DNA of 64,000 nt from Edaphobacter lichenicola (lineage in GTDB: Bacteria; Acidobacteriota; Terriglobia; Terriglobales; Acidobacteriaceae), in contig NZ_CP073696.1 in NCBI RefSeq assembly GCF_025264645.1, positions 3,410,001-3,474,000 of the forward strand. The letters run 5' to 3'. The notes below the pieces were generated by a model, which saw only the letters and a list, made by a program, of their open reading frames with translations, was not told the DNA's origin and searched no databases. Positions 2,138 to 25,208 of the stretch are shown here, in pieces. The translations under genes and the position numbers were made by a program. Every line of letters starts with the position of its first letter. Position 1 is the stretch's first letter.

Positions 2138-2908
2138 CTATTGAAATGATGGACTAATTTGTTCCATCCGCCAGATCGGTCCTCCTTCGTATAACGGTCC
2201 TTCTTCTCGAACAAAGGCGGGCGGAGTGCCGTCTTGGAGCCAGATGTGGTAGTCCGAGGGCTGCTTGCCGATGATCGGTGCAACGACCCCTGTCACTCCA
2301 CCCAACTCTACGTGCAGCGTGAAGTCAGTAGCTTTACGTCGGAATGCACCCACGCGAAACGTTAAGGTTCCCATCGGCTTGATGGAAAGATGAATCAGCC
2401 GGGCCTTTTTACCGGGGGCTATGTAGGCGACTTTGGTCTCGGGAGTCGTTGGGAGAATGTTGAGCAGAAGGTTCGGTGGCAGCCCGTTCGACACGTCAGC
2501 GGGTAAGTCCATGTGCTCCTTCGAGATCGTTCCGTCTTCCGCCTTGAACGTGAGATCTCCACTCGCCATGTCGATGAGAAAGTCGATGGGTTTCGGAAAC
2601 GAGGGGCCGTGCTGAATGTGGTGATCGCTAATCAAGCGAAACACACCTTGCTGTGTAAAGACAGTGACATCTTCATCCACGGAGCCGTCTTTGAAATGGA
2701 AGATCAGGCGAGACGTGACTCTCCCGCGGCTGACGACCTGAGTAGAATCGCCTGTAGCGATGGTCACACCGTCGAGCGTCTTGAGGGCCAAAAAGCCGTG
2801 GCTTGACCCCTGCCCATAACGCACTTGAATGGGTTCTCCTGACAAGGTAGCAACGTAGACACAGCTTAAGATTGATATGAGACCGAGAGCAATGGTCGTG
2901 AAACGCAT
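2138..2908 (-). CDS. Secreted protein of unknown function
   Basis: 256 residues starting with a classical signal peptide (MRFTTIALGLISILSCVYVATLSG). The rest is beta-rich with no motif I recognise; it repeatedly shows short strand-like segments such as RLIFHFKDGSVDEDV, and lacks Cys and obvious catalytic patterns. It probably acts in the periplasm or outside the cell. Convergent with the response regulator gene, whose stop lies 10 bp away. I do not assign a function. Confidence 0.75.
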   Translation of the reverse strand: MRFTTIALGLISILSCVYVATLSGEPIQVRYGQGSSHGFLALKTLDGVTIATGDSTQVVSRGRVTSRLIFHFKDGSVDEDVTVFTQQGVFRLISDHHIQHGPSFPKPIDFLIDMASGDLTFKAEDGTISKEHMDLPADVSNGLPPNLLLNILPTTPETKVAYIAPGKKARLIHLSIKPMGTLTFRVGAFRRKATDFTLHVELGGVTGVVAPIIGKQPSDYHIWLQDGTPPAFVREEGPLYEGGPIWRMEQISPSFQ

Positions 2909-3460
2909 GGAATTGTTACTCCCGGGAATTTGAGTGCGGTCTAGCGTTTGAACGAGCCGAAACGGCGCTGCAGCTGACTAAACCCTGCTCAAAACCTTTT
3001 GATGCAACTAGGCCGGTGACTATCGATCTTCTGATCGAATCTGTGCGATTTTCCAAAATCCTCTTTCTGAGGGAGGAGTTTCACTCCTCACCCCTCTCCA
3101 GCCGCTGCGCGTCTTCCGCCACCTGCCTCAGCGGGACATTCCTTCACGCAACCCATCCCCAATAGTTCTTGCATACTTACGCACTCATATCGAAGCCAAA
3201 ACTCGATAGGAACCTCTGCCCTGATCGCGCGCGATTAGGGGTTCCCGCAGTCTTCCTCAACTACAAACTTGGGAACGTGCATACAGCCACTCTCGCCACT
3301 GAAGCTATCCTGCTCTCAGATGTCATAGTCTGCTGAGGGAGGCCCGATCGACGTCGCTCCGGGTAAACGCGCTTCCCGTCAGCAATGCTTCTGGATTGAT
3401 GTTAATGGCCGATGCGTTCCTCGATGGACCAGGAACGGGCATTCTGCATGTTGAGATTTA
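2909..3460. other. Intergenic stretch without a supported gene
   Basis: 552 bp between the start of the secreted-protein gene and the end of the DUF1016 gene. No convincing coding frame is visible. The only clear structure is a 7-bp inverted repeat, GAGGAGT/ACTCCTC with a 3-nt loop, at 3073-3089. It could be a weak hairpin after the DUF1016 gene but has no T run. Confidence 0.5.
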
Positions 3461-4582
3461 TCAGTTCGTTCTACGTTCCTGAATCGCAGCTTGTGAGCGC
3501 TCTAACGCATCAGCAATCAGCTTTTCATCGGGGAGAACAGTCCTGTATTCCGCGGCAAGGACTTTGTTTGGCAGGTTATCGAGTGCGTAGTGAGCTTCCG
3601 CTACGCCTTTCTCCGTGCAAAGGATTAGACCAACGGGAGGATTCTCGCCAGGCTTCATCCAGTGTTCCTTGGCGTAATTGAGATAGAGGTGCATCTGACC
3701 GGCGTCAGCGTAGCCGAACTTGCCCACTTTTAGATCGACGATGAGCAAACACCGCAAACGCCTATGAAAGAAGATGAGATCGATTCGAAACCAATTGTCA
3801 TCTAAGCGCAGCCGACGTTGACGCCCCATGAACGCAAAATCGTCGCCCAGTTCGAGCAGGAAGTCCGCTAGATGTTGGATCAACGCTTCTTCGAGTTCTG
3901 ATTCTGAATATTCGTCTTTCAGGTTGAGAAATTCGAGTATGAAAGGATCTTTGATTGCTTCTTCCAGCGAGATCGCATCACCGGATTCCGGGACAGCAGC
4001 CTTTTCAAGCATCGCTGTCTTGTTACGGGATAGCGCAATGCGCTCGTAAAATTGGCTGCTAATCTGGCGGTCGAGCTGCCGAACCGACCATCCGGAACGC
4101 AACGCTTCGGTTTCGTAGAATTTGCGGGCCTTTTGGTTTCTCACCGAGAGCAACCGTACATAGGCGGACCACGGTAGCGGGAAGCGAGTCGCCACCGCGG
4201 TGATCTCCGATATGGTCGACGCCGCGGCAGGGAGAGGAGATTCTCCAGACGGTGTCTGGAGAAAGTTCTTTTCCGGCCATGTTCGATAAAAACCCCTCAT
4301 CTGCCAGAGATTGGCTCTGCCGAATCCGCGTCCGAAACGCCGCGTGAGGTCCTTGGCGAGTTGCTCTACCAGCTTCTCACCGTAATCCGCCCGGTTCTCT
4401 CCTCGCATCTCAGATTCAACAATGCGCCTTCCGATCTCCCAATAGGTCGCGGTCATAACCGCGTTGATGCTGCGCGCTGACGCGACGCGAGCGGCTTGCA
4501 ACAAATCGACGATGCCGTTGCGAACATAGGCGTAGTCCGCATCTGGTCTATCCAGCTTCTGCTCAGCCATATCCAGGTCCAT
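3461..4582 (-). CDS. YhcG/DUF1016-type PD-(D/E)XK nuclease family protein
   Basis: 373 residues. The N-terminal half matches the DUF1016_N pattern (TYWEIGRRIVESEM, YGEKLVEQLAKDL, RRFGRGFGRANLWQMRGFY). The C-terminal half is the PDDEXK_9-like nuclease domain: DLIFFHRRLRCLLIVDLKVGKF supplies the acidic residue and the D-x-K core, followed by QMHLYLNYAKEH. Known family members are found in defence islands and mobile regions; some E. coli relatives affect DNA processing. A second Met five codons in is an alternative start. It lies just outside the left att repeat of the island and may be cargo of an older neighbouring element. Confidence 0.88.
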   Translation of the reverse strand: MDLDMAEQKLDRPDADYAYVRNGIVDLLQAARVASARSINAVMTATYWEIGRRIVESEMRGENRADYGEKLVEQLAKDLTRRFGRGFGRANLWQMRGFYRTWPEKNFLQTPSGESPLPAAASTISEITAVATRFPLPWSAYVRLLSVRNQKARKFYETEALRSGWSVRQLDRQISSQFYERIALSRNKTAMLEKAAVPESGDAISLEEAIKDPFILEFLNLKDEYSESELEEALIQHLADFLLELGDDFAFMGRQRRLRLDDNWFRIDLIFFHRRLRCLLIVDLKVGKFGYADAGQMHLYLNYAKEHWMKPGENPPVGLILCTEKGVAEAHYALDNLPNKVLAAEYRTVLPDEKLIADALERSQAAIQERRTN

Positions 4583-4808: not shown

Positions 4809-4854
4809 ATGGCATGGAAGAGGTCATCGGTTCGATCCCGATCAGGTCCACCAA
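4809..4854 (+). repeat. attL: 46-bp direct repeat, 3' part of tRNA-Ala(GGC)
   Basis: Identical to 25163-25208. From U33 on it reads as a perfect tRNA 3' portion: anticodon GGC, A37, stem GGAAG, variable loop AGGTC, T arm ATCGG/CCGAT around TTCGATC, acceptor strand CAGGTCC with U70 (which pairs with G3 in alanine tRNAs), discriminator A and encoded CCA. Typical attachment core of tyrosine-integrase islands. Upstream bases do not complete a proper tRNA 5' half, so this copy is a fragment. Confidence 0.9.
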
Positions 4855-4915: not shown

Positions 4916-6112
4916 TCATGCTGCATCCTCCGCAGCACTTTCTACGACATTCCTGGAACGGTCCAGGAGAACATCGACCACACGGCTTTGCGCTTCGCGC
5001 TTGGCTGAAGTCAGGGCCTTCGTGTAAATGTTCATCGTTGTGGAGATGTTTGCGTGGCGCATCAATTCCTGCACCACTTTGACATCTTCCCCGTTCGCTT
5101 TGAGCAGCGTTGAGTAGGTGTGCCGAAAAGTATGGAAGCCGACCCACTTTGTGATCCCAGCCCGTTTTGCGGCAGGTTGGAGGAAGCGATCCAGAAGCGT
5201 ATCGGCCCAGGGCGGCATTTTGCCCTGAACTCGTTCGCTGGCAAAGACCCAGTCCTCCGGCTCTGCGTAGCAAGTTTCCCGCCTCCAGGCCAGCAACTCG
5301 GCAGTGGTTAGCTCGTCGATGGGAACCGGCCTGCGGGAAGTCTCAGTCTTGCACTTCCCAATAATGCCGTCCACTACCGACCGGGTAACGTCCATCTGCA
5401 ACGTCTTCCAATCGATGTCGATCCACTTCAGGCCCAGGACCTCACTAATGCGGAGGCCTGTTGTCGCCGCCACGATGCCAATGACGCGCATCTTCTGCGG
5501 CAACTCCAGCATGAGCGCACGGAACTCTGCCACTTCCAACGGTTCCGTGACACGCTGCCGCTTGGTGCTCTGGCGGACAGCAAAGATGGGATTCTCTCCA
5601 TCATTGAGCCAGCCATAGCGGATCGCGTGTTGGAAGACTTCACTCATGATGCCCTTGATCTTCGCTTTGGTCCCATTTGCTAAATCGTCGATGGAGCCAA
5701 GCCACCGCTCTACTGCTACTGCTTTGATCTCCCGAAGACGGTAATGGCCCCAACGCGGAACGATTCTCGCCTTCAGATAAACAGCGTAGGTCTGTTTCGT
5801 CTGTACGACCTTCCGCTCGGATTCCTTTTCCAGATCCAATTCAATCAACCGGTAGTGCTCAACCAATTGTTCGAAAGTTTCCGGCAATCCTTCAGGACGG
5901 GAGGTGTGGTGGTTAACGTCGAGGCGCAGTGTCGAAACAGCCTTCCATGCTGCCGTTTCCGTTGGGTACTGCTTCACTGAACCAATTACAAGAGCACGCA
6001 TTTTGGGCTTGCCTTTGGCGTCGATATCCCGCCATCGATAAACCCAGACTTCTGGCCCCTTCTTGCGCTGATGACGGCTGAAAAAGCCGTGTTGATAACG
6101 TGGTCGATTCAA
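4916..6112 (-). CDS. int: Tyrosine-type site-specific integrase
   Basis: 398 residues, full length for a tRNA-site island integrase. N-terminal arm-binding and SAM-like core-binding domains (about 1-185) precede the catalytic domain. The active-site residues are visible: Arg221 in TTGLRISEVLGLKW, a Lys in GKCKTETSRR (about 253-255), His327-x-x-Arg330 in HTFRHT, His353 in LMRHANIST and the nucleophile Tyr363 in MNIYTKA. It should recombine the 46-bp tRNA-Ala core lying about 60 bp beyond its 3' end. Its start is 12 bp from the excisionase-like gene, so the two are probably co-transcribed. Confidence 0.95.
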   Translation of the reverse strand: MNRPRYQHGFFSRHQRKKGPEVWVYRWRDIDAKGKPKMRALVIGSVKQYPTETAAWKAVSTLRLDVNHHTSRPEGLPETFEQLVEHYRLIELDLEKESERKVVQTKQTYAVYLKARIVPRWGHYRLREIKAVAVERWLGSIDDLANGTKAKIKGIMSEVFQHAIRYGWLNDGENPIFAVRQSTKRQRVTEPLEVAEFRALMLELPQKMRVIGIVAATTGLRISEVLGLKWIDIDWKTLQMDVTRSVVDGIIGKCKTETSRRPVPIDELTTAELLAWRRETCYAEPEDWVFASERVQGKMPPWADTLLDRFLQPAAKRAGITKWVGFHTFRHTYSTLLKANGEDVKVVQELMRHANISTTMNIYTKALTSAKREAQSRVVDVLLDRSRNVVESAAEDAA

Positions 6113-6423: not shown

Positions 6424-6939
6424 TCATTCCTCACGTCTGCCCTCGAACGGTGTAGGCTTGAAGAGCTTCGTTCGACTGAGCTGGGCGTCCTTGGCCCGGT
6501 TCTCCTCCGCGAGTCGATCCAATCTCGCCATTTCCTCTTCTCTTCGGATTTGCCATTCTGGTTTGGTATTTTGCCCGATACCCTGATTCGCTACAGGCGC
6601 GGCGGCGGGCTGTGATTGCCTTTCTACGGTCGGCGCAGGGAGGTTCTTGGTCGTTGTCCTGTTCGGGGCAGGCTTACCTGTGAGCCGATTCGCCATCGCA
6701 ACGAACTGCCGGTATGTTCCCTGATAGCCCACATCCCGCAAGATCCGCCAAACCGCTTTCCAGGGCAGACCGACTTCTGAAATGGCGTTCAACTCAACAG
6801 CAAATCTTTTCAGCCCCCTGGCCTTAAGCGGAAGGAGATCCTTTCTAGCTCGGATCCGTTCGGCCAACGCTTTCACCTCGGTCACCTCGATATTTATTGA
6901 CGAGTACATTTCAATACGAGTTTGCCATCGGATTTTCAT
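6424..6939 (-). CDS. TraK-like/accessory mobile-element protein, function unknown
   Basis: 171 residues. The N-terminal about 85 contain a small helical domain (RFAVELNAISEVGLPWKAVWRILRDVGYQGTYRQFVAMANRL), which resembles the HTH-like domain of TraK/MobC-like accessory proteins of plasmids and islands. The remainder is low-complexity (Pro/Ala/Gln linker) and a charged helix (EWQIRREEEMARLDRLAEENR). The start is uncertain: Met1 or Met11, neither with a strong ribosome binding site. Its 5' region is duplicated in decayed form at 10185-10340, on the far side of the retron/HNH genes. The TraK relation is a resemblance, not a firm call. Confidence 0.55.
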   Translation of the reverse strand: MKIRWQTRIEMYSSINIEVTEVKALAERIRARKDLLPLKARGLKRFAVELNAISEVGLPWKAVWRILRDVGYQGTYRQFVAMANRLTGKPAPNRTTTKNLPAPTVERQSQPAAAPVANQGIGQNTKPEWQIRREEEMARLDRLAEENRAKDAQLSRTKLFKPTPFEGRREE

Positions 6940-7074
6940 TCATGCAAGGCGGCGGTCCATTTATATCTTTGACCGCCCTCACCTTCCCTCACTTTTCAGG
7001 CCAAGGCAGCATTCGGCAGCACTTGCCCTTATCGTCAAGAGCGGTGAAGGTGAATGAGACTCTGTCTGCTAAGC
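6718..7074. repeat. Copy 1 of an imperfect direct duplication flanking the retron/HNH cargo
   Basis: Aligns with 10185-10435 over most of its length (shared blocks such as TGATAGCCCACATCC, CAAGGCAGCATTCGGCAGCA and GGTGAATGAGACT). This copy holds the 5' part of the intact TraK-like gene plus a 27-codon 3' fragment (6989-7072, minus) of the small gene that is complete at 10351-10578. About 106 bp present here, including the TraK-like start, are missing from copy 2. Confidence 0.8.
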
Positions 7075-7233
7075 TTTAGCTGTTAAAGACGGTGCTCGTT
7101 TGTTGGACCGTCAAGCCGACGCCGGGTCTCAATGGCTTACGGAGCTTCCACGCCATCTGGGGCGGCACTCCTCTTTTGGACATTTACTACGCGACTTCGG
7201 ACGGCGTCAAAGTGCGCGAAAGTTGGCGTGAAG

Positions 7234-8988
7234 TCAGGGAGTGGCGTGTGGGTTGACTTGCGAAGCGACATGCGCAGCGATTACGTCAGTGATGGTTTTT
7301 AAGATCGGATTAAAACCGTTGAAATCCGTTGTACCAGCATTCTTCTTGATGACCTGCTCGGCGAATATGGCCTTCCCGTAATGAATGCTCTGATCGAAAG
7401 GCTTGTGCGGCATGAATGTCTTGCCACCGACAACTGTGCCAAGAGTTTGCTGCGAGAAGAAATCCTCGATTACAGATTCGGTCTTACCAGCCGTCAGCGG
7501 AGTTGGCAGCACATAGAGATTGTGCGTTACATGAATATAAGGGGCGGTCCAGGAAGACTGCCGCTTTGTTATGTTGTTGATCACACCGGTCAAGTCTTTC
7601 TTGCCGTCGTCGTTGTCAACAAGGATGATAACGGGCTGCAACAGACCGGGTGCCTTGAACTTCTTAAGATCGCTGCTATAGCGGAGAATGAAATTCTTCA
7701 AGTCGCCAGTCCCGCCGTGTAGCTCGAGAATGCGCCCTGTGCTTGTTTCCGGGTACTTGAATATGCGAACTTTCAGAGACACGGCGTTCTTAGGAGAGAT
7801 CGATGCCAAGCCAGGGTAGCCTGCAGCAAGGTGCTTTATTGCCTCCGATATATATATATTGTCGGTCTTGCCTTCGCAGATGATCACTGGAGTCTGCGCG
7901 CTGTAGAAATATTCAAAAATCAGAAAGCGCCGATATTGGCTTTCCTTCGTCTGGATGCTTGTTTTTGGACTGCTTCCCGCGATGTTGGATTGCTGGCTGA
8001 TGCGTTTGTTGTACAGATCGACCCGGTCGATATGCCCAAGCATTCCGTGAAGCTGTGCCATCGTGCCAGGGCTTTTCTGCGTAGTACCACCCGAAGGTGC
8101 TGGACCGACGCTTTCAAGGTAGAAGGCGCCGGTGGTAAAAAGCCTATGAACCATCGCGCGGACCGCCCGGCGATATTCGCTTTTGATATTCACTTTCTTG
8201 TTTACGACCAGTCCCGTCACGTCCTGACGCGAGTTCCGGTACTGCATGCGCGTCTTCGCGGCGTTGATCGTAAAGCCGGAGTTCGCTACGAGTTTACTGA
8301 TTTCATTCGCGGCGCTCCAACTATGATTCACACCGATATTCCCGACCGCGATTGACGATGGAAATGTCGGAAGATTAGTTGAAAATGTTAGGTCGTCAGC
8401 GTACCTGGTATAAGTGCAGCCGGCTTTCTGTGCAAGTTGAAGGAGCCTGATGTCCAGAATATGGGCGATGAGGTTCGAGAGGACCGGCGAGCAGGGGCTT
8501 CCTTGCGGGAGCGCGTTGTCATTGCAAGCAATCTGCGCGAGGACGGTGGCCACCTTCGGGTGGAGGGAGAAATGCTTGTTAACGATGAAAAATCCCCGAA
8601 CTCGCCCAAAGTTGATACTGCCAAAGAAGTCGGCAAGATCAAGATTGAAAACCCAACGTCTGCCTCGGTGTCGACAAGCGTTGCTCACTATGGATCGGTC
8701 GCGCTTGAATCCGTGCGCGATTTGATCCTTCCAGCCATTCGTCGCGTTCAGTTCAGCAGTACAGTCCTGAAGGAGATCTGAAAGATTTCTTTGCAGCAAT
8801 TTGAGGTCATCCGTGGGTGCCTGGATCACTCTTGTGCCGCCGGAGGCCTTCTGCAGCACAAAAGTGCGGTATTTAGCGGCCGGAATCTTGCGGTAAAGAA
8901 TATAGGCTAGCGCTTTTGGCTTGAAATTCAGCAAGGCCGCTACATCATGCAGGGTGCTCGCGTTCTTGAGAGATTGCAGCCTGGACAT
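7234..8988 (-). CDS. Retron reverse transcriptase fused to a Toprim domain
   Basis: 584 residues. RT domain (about 35-290): retron-specific NAxxH as N103-A-C-R-H107, catalytic Asp in NLDLADFF (117-120), ALPQGSPCSPVLSN (159-172), catalytic YADD at 196-199 and the retron VTG motif at 257-259. The C-terminal part (about 365-584) is a Toprim domain: VIICEGKTD (Glu372) and VIILVDNDD (Asp458-461). Known counterpart: the Ec67 (Eco2) retron RT, of nearly the same length and also RT-Toprim, an anti-phage system. The RT would make msDNA from the RNA encoded just upstream; the Toprim half is the presumed effector nuclease. The ATG lies 15 nt after the a2 repeat of that RNA. Confidence 0.92.
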   Translation of the reverse strand: MSRLQSLKNASTLHDVAALLNFKPKALAYILYRKIPAAKYRTFVLQKASGGTRVIQAPTDDLKLLQRNLSDLLQDCTAELNATNGWKDQIAHGFKRDRSIVSNACRHRGRRWVFNLDLADFFGSINFGRVRGFFIVNKHFSLHPKVATVLAQIACNDNALPQGSPCSPVLSNLIAHILDIRLLQLAQKAGCTYTRYADDLTFSTNLPTFPSSIAVGNIGVNHSWSAANEISKLVANSGFTINAAKTRMQYRNSRQDVTGLVVNKKVNIKSEYRRAVRAMVHRLFTTGAFYLESVGPAPSGGTTQKSPGTMAQLHGMLGHIDRVDLYNKRISQQSNIAGSSPKTSIQTKESQYRRFLIFEYFYSAQTPVIICEGKTDNIYISEAIKHLAAGYPGLASISPKNAVSLKVRIFKYPETSTGRILELHGGTGDLKNFILRYSSDLKKFKAPGLLQPVIILVDNDDGKKDLTGVINNITKRQSSWTAPYIHVTHNLYVLPTPLTAGKTESVIEDFFSQQTLGTVVGGKTFMPHKPFDQSIHYGKAIFAEQVIKKNAGTTDFNGFNPILKTITDVIAAHVASQVNPHATP

Positions 8989-9003
8989 ATCGTCTTATAG
9001 GGT

Positions 9004-9130
9004 GCCTACAGACACTCTTACGCGATAGCACATGACGATCTCAATCTGATAGCCATGAGCGACTTGTCAGCAACGATTCTAACGTTGATTTCACTTGCCA
9101 CGAAACGCGGCAGAAGATCTGACTGTAGGC
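9004..9130 (-). ncRNA. Candidate retron msr-msd RNA
   Basis: The 127-nt stretch directly upstream of the RT gene, same strand. Its ends are a perfect 8-bp inverted repeat: GCCTACAG (9130-9123, a1) and CTGTAGGC (9011-9004, a2), extendable with one mismatch. After a1 comes an AGATC segment, then two hairpins suited to an msr: TGCCGCG-TTT-CGTGGCA (7 bp, one G-T pair) and CAACG-TTAGAAT-CGTTG. The following msd part (about 60 nt) has only modest self-complementarity that I can see by eye. Position, a1/a2 and hairpin order match the retron plan; boundaries and the branching G are inference. Confidence 0.72.
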
Positions 9131-9173
9131 GAAATCAGGCTAACACAGTGTTTTGAGCCACCGGACATCGAGA

Positions 9174-10115
9174 CTATCTAAAGGTGTTGTAAGCGTGGTA
9201 CTCGAAGTTCTCAGTAAGCGGCCTAAAAGACGGCATGGCTGGCTCCCGGATCGGCTGCCCATGCAGCCTGTAGTATTCCTTTCCGTTCTGAAACTCCTCG
9301 CGAATACGCGAGCTCACCAAAATTGTTCGATCTGCGGGGTCGATGGTGATATAGCCATCGTCAAAGAGCCGGTGCAGATCGCTTCTCATTAGAATGCCGT
9401 TCGAGACCTCATGACGGTGCAGAACCGAATAGGGCTTGATGTGCGCAGCATCTAGGACCGGAAGGGTGCGCTCGCCTGTGAGGGCGCACCGGCGCTCGTA
9501 CGCATCCGTAACGACTATGCGGAATGATCCCTGACCCAGCCGGGGTAAAACAATTTGCGGCTTGCCGCAACCGTGGGATTCGATGGCGGCGAGCGTGGCG
9601 GTCTCCTCTATTAGCATCGCCGCGGGCTGCAACCTAAGCCTCTCTTCGACGGCGGCCCAAAGATCGCGTCCAGCCCCGTATTCAGCGTCGTATCCCTTCC
9701 CTTGGACTGTGTTCAGCTTGAAATCTGGCGGGGAAGGAATCCACAAGTTTACCGGCCAGAAGAAGGGTTCTGCCAGCATGATACAGCCGATTGTCGGGTT
9801 TTCGGCGGGAAGGATTGGCGCCCTCCGGTAATAGGCAATCCGCTGCCGCATCTCCGTCATAGAAGCCACGCCGTTCCCGACTCCGAACGCGTCCCACGCT
9901 ATATTCACCGAGAGCTGCTGGAATTTTGTGAAGAAGCCGCCACCAACTATGAAGTTGTCAGGGGCATGCAGTTTGAAAAGCAGCAGCTCGCCGGGATTGA
10001 GTGCCTTGAACGTGGCAATGGGTGACGGTCGCCAGAAATTAACCTCATCCACGTTTGCCCGGGAGGCGTGAAGTTGGAACCAGCTCTTATCAGTGACCCC
10101 GACAAATATCCGCAT
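9174..10115 (-). CDS. HNH endonuclease with N-terminal reader-like domain (COG3440-like)
   Basis: 313 residues. The C-terminal HNH_2-type nuclease is clear: RIVVTDAYERRCALTG (Cys210), LDAAHIKPY (His225), SNGILMRSDLHRLFD (Asn239, His248). The N-terminal about 150 residues (MRIFVGVTDKSWFQL, WRPSPIATFKALNPGELLLFKLHAPDNFIVGGGFF) look like the PUA/EVE/SRA-type reader found in predicted restriction endonucleases that recognise modified DNA. A stand-alone modification-dependent restriction role is the family expectation. It lies upstream of the retron on the same strand, 43 bp before the msr-msd candidate, so it may share transcripts with it. Confidence 0.85.
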   Translation of the reverse strand: MRIFVGVTDKSWFQLHASRANVDEVNFWRPSPIATFKALNPGELLLFKLHAPDNFIVGGGFFTKFQQLSVNIAWDAFGVGNGVASMTEMRQRIAYYRRAPILPAENPTIGCIMLAEPFFWPVNLWIPSPPDFKLNTVQGKGYDAEYGAGRDLWAAVEERLRLQPAAMLIEETATLAAIESHGCGKPQIVLPRLGQGSFRIVVTDAYERRCALTGERTLPVLDAAHIKPYSVLHRHEVSNGILMRSDLHRLFDDGYITIDPADRTILVSSRIREEFQNGKEYYRLHGQPIREPAMPSFRPLTENFEYHAYNTFR

Positions 10116-10350
10116 TGTGCCCGTCGGATCACAGTTTACATTTCATAGAAGCGAACATCGGGAAGTAATTCTTTGTGGGATAGATCCCTGATAGCCCACA
10201 TCCTGGAATACCCCCCAAACCACTATCCAGAGCAGACCGACATCTGCGATGGTCTTCAATTCAACCGCAAACCTCTTCGGCCCCCTGGGCCTTGAGCGGA
10301 AGGAGCTCCTTTTTTGCTAGGAGCCGTTCGACCAGTGCCCTCACCTTCCC
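10116..10350 (-). pseudogene. Decayed 5' copy of the TraK-like gene
   Basis: 10185-10340 is clearly related to the 5' half of the gene at 6424-6939, but carries many substitutions and lacks about 106 bp including the start codon, so it cannot express that protein. The 70 bp before it, upstream of the HNH gene, hold no recognisable element. Confidence 0.65.
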
Positions 10351-10435
10351 TCACTTTGCAGCACAAGGCAGCATTCGGCAGCACTTTCCCGCATCGTCAA
10401 GAGCGGTGAGGGTGAATGAGACTTTGTCTGCCAAG
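10185..10435. repeat. Copy 2 of the duplication flanking the retron/HNH cargo
   Basis: Partner of 6718-7074, in the same orientation. It combines a broken TraK-like 5' region with the intact 3' end of the small gene at 10351-10578. The stretch encoding LADKVSFTLTALDDAGKCC keeps its reading frame in both copies, suggesting it was coding when duplicated. Confidence 0.78.
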
Positions 10436-10855: not shown

Positions 10856-12037
10856 ATGATTTATCGCATCGCGACAGCTCGGCTCACTCAACTCTTGGGG
10901 CAATTCCCCGCCGTTGCTTTGCTTGGACCGCGACAAGTTGGAAAAACTACCCTGGCACTCAGCCTCACCAACGAAGCGCAGAATTCACCGCTGTACCTCG
11001 ATCTGGAGCTTCCCTCAGACCGCGCAAAGCTCGCCGACCCGGAGCTCTACCTTTCCGACTATGAGGATCGGCTCGTGATCCTGGACGAGATCCACCGCCT
11101 TCCCGGAATCTTTCAAACTCTGCGTAGCTTGATCGACCGGAGAAAACGAAAAGGAAAGCGGACCGGCCAGTTCCTATTACTCGGATCGGCCTCCATTGAT
11201 CTTTTGCAGCAATCTGCGGAGACGCTTGCGGGCAGAATCGCTTATATGGAGCTAACTCCATTTCTGGAGAGCGAAGTAGTTGGTTCCTCCCCCAATGCTG
11301 CTCTGGCTCTTTGGGTGCGTGGCGGCTTCCCCGACAGCTTTCTCGCGGAAACCGAAGTTCAGAGCTTCGAATGGCGGGCCGCCTTCATCCAGACCTATTT
11401 GGAACGGGACGTTCCGTCGTTAGGTCCACGCGTTCCGGCTGAGACGCTTCACCGCTTTTGGCAAATGCTTGGACACAATCAAGGCCAGATGTTGAACGCG
11501 GCGCAGCTTGCGGCAGGCTTGGGAATAAGCGGCCAGACAGTCGGCAGATATCTCGACATCATGGTTGACCTCCTGCTCGTGCGTCGTTTGCAGCCATGGT
11601 CTTCAAATGTCGGCAAGCGGCTTGTCCGCTCCCCAAAGGTCTATGTGCGGGATAGCGGACTTCTGCATACTCTGCTGGGGATACGCGATCAGGAAACCTT
11701 ATTGGGGCATCCGGTGGTCGGATCGAGCTGGGAGGGAATGATCATCGAGAACATCTTGAGCGCGGTACCGGCCAACACGCAGGCTTGGTTTTACCGCACC
11801 TCAGTTGGGGCCGAGATTGACTTGGTTCTGGAGACCGCGCCAAATGAGCGATGGGCAATCGAGATGAAGCGTTCCCTAAGCGATCCGAAGCCAACCAAGG
11901 GTTTCTACATCGGTTGCGCCGACGTCAAAGCCAACCATCAAATTGTCGTTTACCCAGGCCAGGAAAGCTACAGGCACGACGCAAAAACGGAGATCATGCC
12001 TCTGCAACCCTTACTTAAGCGGTTGTCACAGCTATGA
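10856..12037 (+). CDS. AAA ATPase of the AAA_14/DUF4143 family
   Basis: About 393 residues. The N-terminal AAA_14 domain has Walker A LLGPRQVGKTTLAL (about 22-35), Walker B LVILDEIHRLP and the family's GSAS sensor segment (LLLGSASIDLL). The C-terminal DUF4143 domain ends in a PD-(D/E)XK-like core: GAEIDLVLETAPNERWAIEMKRS. Such proteins are frequent on mobile DNA and in defence clusters; the molecular role is poorly known. Start: the ATG at 10856 is preferred over a TTG nine bases upstream. It is the only plus-strand gene among the neighbouring minus-strand cargo. Confidence 0.88.
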   Translation: MIYRIATARLTQLLGQFPAVALLGPRQVGKTTLALSLTNEAQNSPLYLDLELPSDRAKLADPELYLSDYEDRLVILDEIHRLPGIFQTLRSLIDRRKRKGKRTGQFLLLGSASIDLLQQSAETLAGRIAYMELTPFLESEVVGSSPNAALALWVRGGFPDSFLAETEVQSFEWRAAFIQTYLERDVPSLGPRVPAETLHRFWQMLGHNQGQMLNAAQLAAGLGISGQTVGRYLDIMVDLLLVRRLQPWSSNVGKRLVRSPKVYVRDSGLLHTLLGIRDQETLLGHPVVGSSWEGMIIENILSAVPANTQAWFYRTSVGAEIDLVLETAPNERWAIEMKRSLSDPKPTKGFYIGCADVKANHQIVVYPGQESYRHDAKTEIMPLQPLLKRLSQL

Positions 12038-21709: not shown

Positions 21710-22037
21710 AAAATCGATTGATGTCCAATCGATTCGCCAAGAACGTTTTCCCCTGCAGAAGCGGCCGCATTCTCAATGTTTAGCTGGAAGCTTCCCTGGG
21801 CGTCGCGGAACAAGCCGCTATCCTCAGTATGAGTAGCGGAAGACGTCGGCACTAGCGGCGCCTGGAGCGAGGGAAAAGACTTCTTCCCTTCAATCACCCG
21901 AGGAAATGCCATTTTCGCAGACTCGGGGCTGGTGGATACCAGAACAGCTTTTTCTTTGATTTACGAAAAGGTGGCGTCTGGACTCTCGGCGCAAAGACTG
22001 TTGAACTTTTTGCCGTACCATTGTGTTTGGGATTGGC
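21710..22037. other. Intergenic stretch before the ABC-3C operon
   Basis: 328 bp. A minus-strand frame of 68 codons exists at 21706-21912 but has no ribosome binding site and no recognisable sequence, so I do not call it. The promoter of the ABC-3C operon should lie in the right-hand part. Confidence 0.35.
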
Positions 22038-22970
22038 ATGACGGAAAAACGGCGTTCTATGGACCCAGTACAGCAGAGTTTCTATGTCCTTCATTTCAAA
22101 GCAGCTTTCCATGAGAAGAAGGGCACAGCTTTCCAAGATTGGTTCGTGCAGATTGCGGGTCATGCCTATGGTCCTGACTTTGATGAGGTGCGCCCATACG
22201 GAAAACAAGGGGATCTGAAATGCGATGGTAGGCTTCTGAGCGCTAAAACTGTCTTTCAGAGCTATGCCCCCTACCTTATGAAGGACACGGAGCTCATTAC
22301 CAAGATTGACGAGGACTTCCAGGGCGCGGTAGAGAACTGGAAAGGTTGGATTGAAAGTTGGATATTCGTTCACAACGATGCGCGCGGACTTCCGCCAGCG
22401 GTGACCATCCAGCTCGACGGATTGAGGAAGCAAAATCCAAAAGTCCACATTGAGGTCTGGTCAGAACCGGAATTGCTGAAATTAGCGCAGCGGATGGATC
22501 TGACTTCGCATCAACTGATGTTCGGGTATGCGCCCTCTCTCGCGGTTGTGGATCGATTGGTTTTGAACGACCTCGTTCCGATTATTGAGGCGCTTTCGCG
22601 TGCGAAACCAAGTGTTATGAATCCGCCGTTGACTCCGCCGAGTTTGCTGAAGCTGGAAAGAAACGCTCTGTCCACGGACGCCGCCGTTTTGCTACAGATG
22701 GGGCGACGCAAGAGTGATTTGGTTCAGACCTTTTTCCTGCGAGGCCCGCGCCCAGATTTCGGGGAACAAATCGCTCAAGCCTTTCGAGAGCGCTACACAA
22801 TTTTGAAGGGCTTAGGTCTACCAGCGGATAGTATTTTCAAGAGCTTTCAAGACTACGCGGGCGGTAACGGTGACCCGCAGCGCCAGGGCGCAGCGCTGGC
22901 TGTTATCACATACTTTTTTGACGCCTGTGACATATTTGAAGATCCAGGCCCAATGGAAAGCGGATCATGA
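22038..22970 (+). CDS. ABC-3C system effector-like component
   Basis: About 310 residues from the ATG at 22038 (TTGGGATT upstream; GTG at 22023 and ATG at 22059 are alternatives). The N-terminal part reads FHEKKGTAFQDWFVQIAGHAYGPDFDEVRPYGKQGDLKCDGRLLSAKTVFQSYAP, a PD-(D/E)XK-like restriction-nuclease pattern (Asp in GDLKCDG, then a lysine-containing strand) often seen in the first gene of ABC-three-component loci. The C-terminal part is a helical interaction domain (ILKGLGLPADSIFKSF). It overlaps the next gene by 4 bp. The known framework: an SMC-like ATPase senses a trigger and licenses the effector. Confidence 0.68.
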   Translation: MTEKRRSMDPVQQSFYVLHFKAAFHEKKGTAFQDWFVQIAGHAYGPDFDEVRPYGKQGDLKCDGRLLSAKTVFQSYAPYLMKDTELITKIDEDFQGAVENWKGWIESWIFVHNDARGLPPAVTIQLDGLRKQNPKVHIEVWSEPELLKLAQRMDLTSHQLMFGYAPSLAVVDRLVLNDLVPIIEALSRAKPSVMNPPLTPPSLLKLERNALSTDAAVLLQMGRRKSDLVQTFFLRGPRPDFGEQIAQAFRERYTILKGLGLPADSIFKSFQDYAGGNGDPQRQGAALAVITYFFDACDIFEDPGPMESGS

Positions 22971-23212
22971 TTCTGCCTTCAAAACACGTCCAGCCGCAAC
23001 GCGCTCTCGTCGGAGTCGGAGCAGAAATCATCAGTGCTCTCACTACGCCGATGACAATGTCTCGAATGTGGGACGAGATTCGTGGACGCCGGACACTCGC
23101 TGTTCCAAACGCTCCTTTGGATTATGAGTGGTTTGTTCTCGCTTTGGATTTTCTATATTCGATAGGCGCGATCGACTACGAACGTGGAACATTGCGGAGG
23201 GTTGCGAAATGA
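22967..23212 (+). CDS. ABC-3C system middle component
   Basis: 81 residues, a small winged-helix-like protein: LVGVGAEIISALTTPMTMSRMWDEIRGRR, then LDYEWFVLALDFLYSIGAIDYERGTLRRV. This size and sequence style match the small middle component (MC6-like) that links effector and ATPase in ABC-three-component systems. It overlaps both neighbours by 4 bp (ATGA at 22967-22970 and 23209-23212), which indicates tight translational coupling. Confidence 0.72.
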   Translation: MILPSKHVQPQRALVGVGAEIISALTTPMTMSRMWDEIRGRRTLAVPNAPLDYEWFVLALDFLYSIGAIDYERGTLRRVAK

Positions 23213-24957
23213 TCCGACATCTCGGAAGCGATCTTCCCTCTTTCAAGACGCTGTCATTCCGCCCAGGTCTGAACATCCTGCTTGCGGACAAAAGCGAAGG
23301 TGCAACTGATCGGCAATCGCGCAATGGGGCGGGCAAATCAAGTTTGGTCGAACTGATCCATTTTCTGTTGGGCGCAGAGGTGCGCCCGGAAAGCCTGTTT
23401 CGGAGTTCAAAACTCGTCGATCACTCCTTCGACATTCTTTTTGATGTAAAGGACGCGCCCATTTCAGCCAGCAGATCGGGTAAACGGCCGTCGAGAATCG
23501 TCGTGGATGGAAACTTTTCTGGCTGGCCGATCACGCCGGTTGAGAAATCTAGCGGGTTTACGGAACTCACAAACGAAGCCTGGAAAGAGAATCTCGGCGC
23601 GTTATGGTTCGGCCTGCCTGTTGAGTCAGAGGAGAGTCATCCGTCATTTCGCTCTCTCTTTTCCTATTTTGCGCGGCGACAAGGGAGCGGGGGATTCATT
23701 CAACCCATTCAACACTCGGGCCAACAGCAAACTTGGGAGCAACAATTTTCTGTGGCCTACCTCCTGGGTTTGGACTGGACTCTTCCGCTACGCTTTCATG
23801 AGCTTCACGTCCGGGAGAAGGTAACAAAGGAGTTGCGTAAAGCAGCCAAATCGGGCGAACTTGGGCAGTATTTCGGACGTGCCGCCGACTTACGGACTCG
23901 ATTGACGGTGGTAGAAGCGCGCGCACAGCGCCTACGTGAGCAACTTGACTCTTTTCAAGTTGTGCCGCAGTACAAAGAGTTGGAGCGTGAGGCTAACGAC
24001 ATTACTCATGCCATCGATTCAAGGAATATCGAAAATGTATTGGATGGGGATCTTGTGCGCCAATTGCGATCCTCGCTTGAAGATGAACGGACACCAGACC
24101 TGAAGGATGTGACGAATGTGTACGCTGAGGTCGGGGTGATTATGCCGGATCTCATCAAGCGGCGTTTCGATGAGGTCGAGAACTTTCATCGCACAATTCT
24201 GGAAAATCGGCGCTCACATCTCGCGTCGGAAATTAGTTCTGCGGAAACGCGTATCGTGGAACGTGACCGATTGAATCTGGAACAGGATCGTAGACGCCAA
24301 CAAATTATGGGCACTTTGCGGTCTGGAGGTGCACTAGAGCACTACACCAATTTGCGCGAGGAGCTGGGTCGCCTGGAAGCCGAAGTGGAAGGTGTGAGGC
24401 AGCGACTCCAAACCGCCGAGACCATCGAAAGCACAAAAACAGAGATGGACATCGAACGGGCAAATTTGCTGAAAGCGTTGAGGGATGATATTCATGAGCG
24501 TGCCGCCACGGTGCGCGAAGCCATTCTGACCTTCGAGCAACTGTCAGAATCGTTATACGAACGCGCCGGAAGTTTGACGATAGCAGAAGCGGCGTCTGGT
24601 CCTTCCTTCGACGTTCATATTGATGGTCAACGGAGCAAGGGGATCACCAATATGCAGATTTTCTGTTTCGACATGACTTTGATGGAGATTTCTCATAAGC
24701 GCGGCCGGGGACCTGGATTTCTCGTTCACGACAGTCATCTATTTGACGGAGTTGATGAACGACAAGTGGCAAAGGCGCTCCAACTGGGGGCTGAGCAAGC
24801 TCAATCAGCGGGGTTCCAGTACATCGTTACGATGAATTCGGACGCATTGCCGAGAGATGGGTTCAAAGGTGATTTCAACATACGTGATTACGTGATGGAC
24901 ACGGTGCTCACCGATGCGACTGAGACGGGTGGATTATTCGGATTGCGCTTTGAGTAG
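23209..24957 (+). CDS. SMC/Rad50-like ATPase of the ABC-3C system (DUF2326 type)
   Basis: 582 residues from the ATG at 23209, which overlaps the preceding stop; the frame extends upstream but only as a shadow. N-terminal ATPase half: LSFRPGLNILLADKSEGATDRQSRNGAGKSSLVELIHFLL, with Walker A NGAGKSS. A long coiled coil follows (about 230-440, rich in Glu/Arg heptads). The C-terminal DUF2326 half has FDMTLMEISHKRGRGPGFLVHDSHLFDGVDERQVAKAL, where the Walker B is VHDSH. It ends with the GLFGLRFE tail. It likely forms the sensing engine of the three-gene defence operon. Confidence 0.85.
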   Translation: MIRHLGSDLPSFKTLSFRPGLNILLADKSEGATDRQSRNGAGKSSLVELIHFLLGAEVRPESLFRSSKLVDHSFDILFDVKDAPISASRSGKRPSRIVVDGNFSGWPITPVEKSSGFTELTNEAWKENLGALWFGLPVESEESHPSFRSLFSYFARRQGSGGFIQPIQHSGQQQTWEQQFSVAYLLGLDWTLPLRFHELHVREKVTKELRKAAKSGELGQYFGRAADLRTRLTVVEARAQRLREQLDSFQVVPQYKELEREANDITHAIDSRNIENVLDGDLVRQLRSSLEDERTPDLKDVTNVYAEVGVIMPDLIKRRFDEVENFHRTILENRRSHLASEISSAETRIVERDRLNLEQDRRRQQIMGTLRSGGALEHYTNLREELGRLEAEVEGVRQRLQTAETIESTKTEMDIERANLLKALRDDIHERAATVREAILTFEQLSESLYERAGSLTIAEAASGPSFDVHIDGQRSKGITNMQIFCFDMTLMEISHKRGRGPGFLVHDSHLFDGVDERQVAKALQLGAEQAQSAGFQYIVTMNSDALPRDGFKGDFNIRDYVMDTVLTDATETGGLFGLRFE

Positions 24958-25162: not shown

Positions 25163-25208
25163 ATGGCATGGAAGAGGTCATCGGTTCGATCCCGATCAGG
25201 TCCACCAA
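25163..25208 (+). repeat. attR: second copy of the 46-bp tRNA-Ala(GGC) core
   Basis: Identical to 4809-4854. The bases upstream (island end) do not form a tRNA 5' half, as expected for the distal att site. Confidence 0.9.

Follow-up and report, generated by a model that had tools for sequence, protein, structure and literature searches.

A type I-C retron of the Ec67/Eco2 family in a genomic island of Edaphobacter lichenicola

Does a reverse transcriptase (RT) gene on the chromosome of Edaphobacter lichenicola, together with the inverted repeat upstream of it, form a complete retron, and if so, of which type and on what kind of element? The gene lies in a 64,000-nt stretch of contig NZ_CP073696.1 (positions 3,410,001 to 3,474,000, forward strand), the whole of which is here called the window and numbered from its first base. 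An earlier note, made from the letters alone, had described the locus as a complete Ec67-like retron, a description that is borne out by NCBIfam, PADLOC, phmmer, Foldseek and a covariance model of the noncoding RNA (ncRNA). The locus falls into type I-C on the evidence of its protein family and fold, the RNA model and the order of its genes. Every expected part of such a retron is present, so that it looks complete, and it is a further representative of the known Ec67/Eco2 family and no separate new kind of system. That the RT-Toprim gene and its msr-msd work as a retron of this type, with a restrained Toprim RNase that is released by phage, is in our view highly probable.

The RT-Toprim protein

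The open reading frame at 7234 to 8988 (minus strand) encodes the 584 residues read from it previously and was identified as an RT-Toprim fusion, a retron Ec67 family reverse transcriptase/endonuclease, by NCBIfam, PADLOC, phmmer and Foldseek. The Ec67 family model NF038237.1 scored 714.9 bits (cut-off 450) and covered residues 4 to 571, the best PADLOC models were those of RT-Toprim_I-C (E = 4.9e-228), and a phmmer search of PDB sequences placed Eco2/Ec67 chains closest (E = 2.8e-124, residues 2 to 570). All RT motifs named in the earlier note were recovered in the translation, namely NAxxH at 103 to 107 (NACRH), the catalytic YADD at 196 to 199 and VTG at 257 to 259. Pfam matched the RT domain of the protein only and returned no Toprim match. 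The proposed C-terminal Toprim domain is supported by the extent of the NF038237.1 and phmmer matches and by the active-site residues kept from Eco2.

The Toprim catalytic set (E, D, DxD, E, K) is present as E372, D376, D458, D460, E508 and K539. We compared the protein with the functional residues of Eco2 named in the accessible part of PMC12405507. In the alignment, F46, R184, H281, E374 and D378 of Eco2 correspond to F43, R181, H281, E372 and D376, and the Toprim residues D460/D462 and E515 to D458/D460 and E508. Eco2 S513 (metal B) is replaced by V506, in a column that varies across the family, and the basic residues K383, K418 and K557, which touch the RNA in Eco2, are not kept. The R332 loop, required for defence in Eco2 according to the same part of PMC12405507, is not conserved here, where the region is gapped. 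The catalytic lysine given there as K562 falls on a D at residue 562 of the Eco2 chain as numbered here. An invariant lysine is found instead at Eco2 position 546, equivalent to K539, and is K in 22 of 22 aligned rows. K562 may follow the numbering of the OLD nuclease compared in the Eco2 paper. The protein alignment omits L004 (start outside the contig match), L010 (type XI), L025 (a near copy of L019) and also L011, L018 and L032, whose matches come in separate pieces.

An AlphaFold2 model computed with the window sequence and six relatives reached a pLDDT of 80 and a pTM of 0.54 and is of no more than fair quality across the full length. Its top five Foldseek matches were all Eco2 chains (9lm3, 9i2f, 9s1f) with E-values down to 1.5e-46 over about the whole chain, one of them titled activated. 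Superposition on Eco2 gave a TM-score of about 0.5 (0.52) and an rmsd of 9.6 to near 10; the low TM-score would fit an uncertain mutual placing of the two domains in the model. Eco2 (Ec67 of E. coli) is the nearest solved retron in both sequence and fold, in line with the suggestion that the protein is close to the Ec67 RT. Both are single-protein RT-Toprim systems that share the motifs and the Toprim active site, whereas protein identity is 39.6% over 566 columns. Family, fold and catalytic residues of the protein are established by these comparisons. A contrasting case is the RT-protease locus L010, which resembles the window protein in its RT domain (39% over residues 5 to 330), but whose best PADLOC match is RT-Protease_XI and in which the I-C RNA model finds nothing.

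The ncRNA upstream of the RT gene

The exact 8-bp inverted repeat GCCTACAG/CTGTAGGC noted earlier as a1/a2 was confirmed at 9123 to 9130 and 9004 to 9011 on the minus strand, where it bounds 127 nt and ends 15 nt before the ATG. As proof of an msr-msd, the bare repeat was rejected because it is too common: the 64-kb window contains 75 exact 8-bp inverted repeats at an offset of 100 to 160. A motif-anchored a1/a2 scan was also weak for this locus, as its score of 22 was reached by 46 of 848 window stretches of 450 nt and by 2 of 100 shuffles of the upstream stretch, and was exceeded in the control stretches downstream of the RT in L007 (24.5) and L015 (27). Among 27 loci scanned, the real score was reached by none of 100 shuffles in 24; it was reached by 14 of 100 in L009 and by 100 of 100 in L010, which has no a1/a2. 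L004 lay outside the scan since its contig starts 78 bases before the match. The motif had been chosen after viewing the upstream sequences, and the scan is therefore not independent evidence by itself. Given its weakness for the window, the case for the ncRNA is carried by a covariance model.

For this model, relatives were drawn from genome, plasmid and E. coli records and from a single phage record, and the DNA upstream of the RT was read. The loci fetched comprised all 7 genome contig loci, 14 of 37 plasmid, 1 of 2 phage and 2 of 538 E. coli records, along with those from the searches of the phylum and of the class of a Legionella genome described below. By the motif scan, 25 of 26 loci other than the window have an a1/a2 pair with matching inner blocks ahead of the RT gene, the exception being the type XI locus L010. 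This is the opposite of homologs lacking the repeat, which the earlier note had named as an outcome that would speak against a retron. Of the 25 loci with a1/a2, 23 entered the alignment (A1); L018 and L025 were dropped as redundant, their ncRNA being identical to those of L014 and L019. Model R1, built from these 23 homologous loci with the window excluded, matched the window at 9002 to 9132 (minus strand) with 70.7 bits (E = 2.8e-16). The match runs end to end with the model, includes the previously noted core of 9004 to 9130 and is the only one up to E = 10 within the 64 kb. The covariance search suggested for this stretch was thus positive, and the agreement seen before between retron motifs and RNA architecture holds for both sides, with the motifs present and the RNA matched by the model.

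At the sequence level, we take this match as independent evidence that the stretch from 9004 to 9130 is retron RNA. It also contradicts a reading in which a1/a2 and the hairpins arose by chance and the RT, in the manner of a defence RT outside the retrons, needs no msr-msd to act. Such a reading could draw on the abundance of 8-bp repeats and on the 46 stretches that equal the motif-anchored score, but the a1/a2 pair recurs upstream of the RT in all but one of the other loci scanned, and we consider it extremely unlikely. In a search of 32 sources, the model gave 30 strong matches, consisting of the window, the 23 training loci, L018, L025 and second copies in L022, L024, L030 and L031. The window ranked 29 of 30 in this set, in which 23 of the others are training rows. 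Two further matches were weak (E = 0.17 and 0.54), and L004 and L010 gave none. Folding of the ncRNA stretch compared with shuffles gave a z-score of −2.17, with 9 of 200 shuffles equally good. A search of Rfam gave nothing above gathering score across the window and nothing up to E = 10 over 8900 to 9240. According to the accessible part of PMC9252829, PADLOC searches msr-msd covariance models, so the RNA family is not to be called new on present evidence.

The 23 non-redundant loci share an AGA ending a1, a short stem-loop and a C..A.GAGT block ahead of a2. A stem with closing G and a loop-side T are fixed in the alignment, and most of the msd interior is variable. When the Eco2 structure was imposed on the 23 homologs, 90.8% of cells paired compared with 32 to 45% with a slid partner, two-sided changes occurred in 20 of 22 pairs, and the covariation score was 0.70 in register versus 0.08 to 0.16 when slid. 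The a1/a2 helix was paired in 97.6% of cells with two-sided changes in 12 of 13 pairs, and the msr stem-loop helix in 80.7% with such changes in 8 of 9. The covarying ncRNA and its order relative to the RT gene are established by these data.

Predicted msDNA and proposed mode of action

The RNA of the window shows the layout of Eco2, lying upstream of the RT gene with a1, an AGAU block whose AGA ends a1, one triloop msr stem-loop, a GAGUG block and a2. The E. coli copy used for comparison (L033) lies in a prophage-like context and matches the layout and base numbers of Eco2 in the accessible part of PMC12405507. We prefer to read a1/a2 as an 11-nt pairing interrupted by a single U-U mismatch, with the a1 arm GCCTACAGTCA at 9120 to 9130 and the a2 arm TGTCTGTAGGC at 9004 to 9014 (both minus strand, as are all RNA features below) extending the exact cores at 9123 to 9130 and 9004 to 9011. 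Aligned with rG15 of Eco2, the branching guanosine, predicted to form the 2',5' link to the first msdDNA base, is probably G9119, the G of the invariant AGA. The msr stem-loop at 9096 to 9112 has 7 bp and a UUU triloop and is equivalent to the RSL of Eco2. The earlier note had described two msr-like hairpins. The first of them is this stem-loop, while the second (9071 to 9087) spans the predicted boundary between msr and msd at 9083, leaving the msr with one hairpin, as in Eco2.

The msr/msd borders were transferred from Eco2 by alignment and would place a 68-nt msd template at 9016 to 9083, compared with 67 nt in Eco2. Reverse transcription is expected to start in the conserved 3' block CGCGTAAGAGTG at 9013 to 9024, in which C..A.GAGT is invariant in 23 of 23 homologs. 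The predicted msdDNA would thus begin with TCTTACGC, end at the complement of 9083 and measure about 68 nt. Across 24 rows, the predicted 5' ends begin with TC in all 24 and with TCTTAYGC in 12, and the interior is variable. The 5' end is constant since the RNA start block is fixed, and it could matter for protein binding. The variable interior is a natural place to seek phage sensing.

Folding of the predicted msdDNA gave −3.8 kcal/mol, the third weakest of 24 rows, with a z-score of 0.50, the second highest. By the same calculation, the msd of Eco2 folds at −6.2 kcal/mol with a z-score of −0.09 and is not significantly stable either, which means that the weak msd is no sign of another class. 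The remark in the earlier note that the msd hairpin looks weak therefore stands, but this weakness does not indicate a form different from that of enteric retrons. A hairpin as a conserved feature of the msd was rejected, as z-scores based on mononucleotide shuffles range from −4.7 to about +0.9 across the 24 rows.

In Eco2, msDNA on the RT-Toprim protein restrains the Toprim RNase until the msDNA is destroyed by phage, and RNase activity, an msDNA-mediated trimer and anti-phage defence are reported, all according to the accessible part of PMC12405507. The same part gives DenB as the trigger, as deduced from escape mutants. By analogy, the ncRNA of the window at 9004 to 9130 would pair via a1/a2 and present G9119, from whose 2'-OH the RT domain would prime and copy about 68 nt of msd (9016 to 9083). 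Reverse transcription would halt ahead of the msr, yielding a branched msDNA that would remain bound to the RT-Toprim protein and keep its C-terminal Toprim RNase inactive within the complex. An infecting phage that degrades or alters the msDNA would release the Toprim domain, which would then cut RNA and bring growth of the cell to a halt, a case of abortive infection. These steps go beyond the sequence at this locus, and we infer them from Eco2, which serves as the model for the synthesis of msDNA, its branch point, the ends of the msd, the activity of the RNase, the trigger and the defence. The locus adds a base-level ncRNA annotation for a type I-C retron distant from the enteric examples and supplies a divergent RT/ncRNA pair for tests of msDNA production.

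Mobile element, neighbours and distribution

The earlier note had placed the retron in an island, which is supported by direct repeats derived from a tRNA and by an integrase. An exact 46-bp repeat was found at 4809 to 4854 and 25163 to 25208 (both plus strand) as putative left and right att borders. Its first 45 bases are the 3' end of the intact tRNA-Ala(GGC) gene at 3318933 to 3319008 of the same genome, followed by one extra base. A tyrosine integrase gene at 4916 to 6112 (minus strand; Pfam Phage_integrase, E = 3.6e-24; PHROG integrase, E = 9.4e-59) lies just inside the left repeat, and an integrase adjoining directly repeated copies of a tRNA 3' end marks a tRNA-borne mobile element. On this basis, an integrative element of about 20.4 kb at tRNA-Ala(GGC) most likely carries the retron. 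Six matches to the tRNA end were counted in this genome. Besides the intact gene, copies occur in the same orientation at 3351012, 3414809 (window 4809) and 3435163 (window 25163), amounting to at least four copies over about 116 kb (3318933 to 3435208). Several integrative elements thus seem to be stacked at one tRNA gene, and the 20.4-kb element is most likely the last listed segment of this series. The tRNA-end repeat and fragments of a similar integrase also occur, without the RT, in another genome of the genus (G788).

Other cargo of the element includes a PDC-S01 ATPase, a type I restriction system, two ParB-like proteins, a large serine recombinase and a PDC-M68/ABC-3C pair. The locus is an example of a retron most likely carried by an integrative element of the tRNA-Ala type together with other defence genes. 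Both members of the PDC-M68A/B pair (window 22023 to 24957) match ABC-3C CTD10, and the second also matches DUF2326. In its host element, of the integrase/tRNA-Ala type, the retron differs from the compared Eco2 copy.

An HNH_2 nuclease gene (9174 to 10115, minus strand; Pfam HNH_2, E = 3.2e-13) lies next to the retron on its upstream side and is treated here as a neighbour. It could be co-transcribed with the retron and act as a second effector or partner, given that it lies on the same strand, ends 43 nt before a1 and shares with the retron a pair of flanking direct repeats (6718 to 7073 and 10185 to 10435; 81 to 91% identity in aligned parts), as if both had been gained as one module. One repeat copy lies within an intact gene for a hypothetical 171-aa protein (6424 to 6939); the other is a degraded piece only. 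Against such a pairing, a tblastn search with the HNH protein at E up to 1e-3 gave no match in any of the other retron loci compared, and of 60 genomes of the genus, 3 others contain HNH homologs (80, 71 and 45% identity), none with the retron, which was found in 0 of 61 others. In genomes G798 and G249, the DNA alignment stops inside the HNH gene (window 9238 and 9265), short of the ncRNA, and otherwise covers only the distant window pieces at 15.6 to 16.6 kb and 19.9 to 20.7 kb. We consider a functional HNH-retron pair improbable, and HNH as a fixed partner of the retron is not supported. Still slightly less probable is that both form one mobile module, a two-effector type I-C variant in a tRNA-anchored defence element. 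Near the HNH homolog of G798, a gene at 11507 to 14878 of L044 encodes a protein of 1123 residues whose Cas9_a, RuvC_III and HNH_4 domains identify it as Cas9.

Of 62 genomes examined in the genus, one contains RT-Toprim and the 61 others do not. In the phylum, the RT was found in 3 of 396 genomes, one of them with a type XI protein, and the RNA model matched 2 of 396, both with an RT, leaving no orphan ncRNA in this search, which used stricter filters and scored 8 candidates per genome among the rows listed. The nearest relative by identity is an RT-Toprim of G569 (57 to 58%), recovered by searching the class to which a Legionella metagenome-assembled genome (MAG) belongs, followed by G095 of the same phylum (52%) and the Terriglobia MAG L001 (50%). 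The four nearest rows form one supported clade (95/96). These three closest relatives share the ncRNA layout, but their gene neighbourhoods differ by open reading frames and no HNH homolog adjoins them. The patchy occurrence and the class in which the nearest relative was found fit a gain of the retron by horizontal transfer. No close relative was confirmed in viral contigs, and blastn of the ncRNA against plasmids gave no match. A literature search coupling retron, msDNA and Acidobacteri returned no paper; judged by titles and abstract openings, none of those pairing retron with Acidobacteri deals with a retron of this group, and the words toprim, I-C and Acidobacteri are absent from the accessible main text of PMC12548924.

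A scan of the minus strand of 6900 to 10300 found no sigma-70-like promoter, with scores no better than those of shuffles. Could the genes look intact and yet no longer yield msDNA or defence in the present host? The missing promoter signal on the retron strand, the single a1/a2 mismatch, the second lowest ncRNA score of the 30 strong matches and the occurrence in one genome of the genus would fit a decayed or silent retron. The full-length reading frame with its catalytic residues and the end-to-end match of the ncRNA to the model oppose this, and real decay is exemplified by L011, with a stop in the RT gene region. We therefore regard a silent retron as unlikely and retain the reading as a type I-C retron. 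L011, on a Caballeronia plasmid, has an ncRNA match of 88 bits (a training row) and an RT gene in two pieces with one stop. Patescibacteria are a group with reduced genomes. A type I-C retron (2281 to 2419 and 2440 to 4116) with a full ncRNA was found in L003, a contig binned as Patescibacteria, an assignment that could be a binning error.
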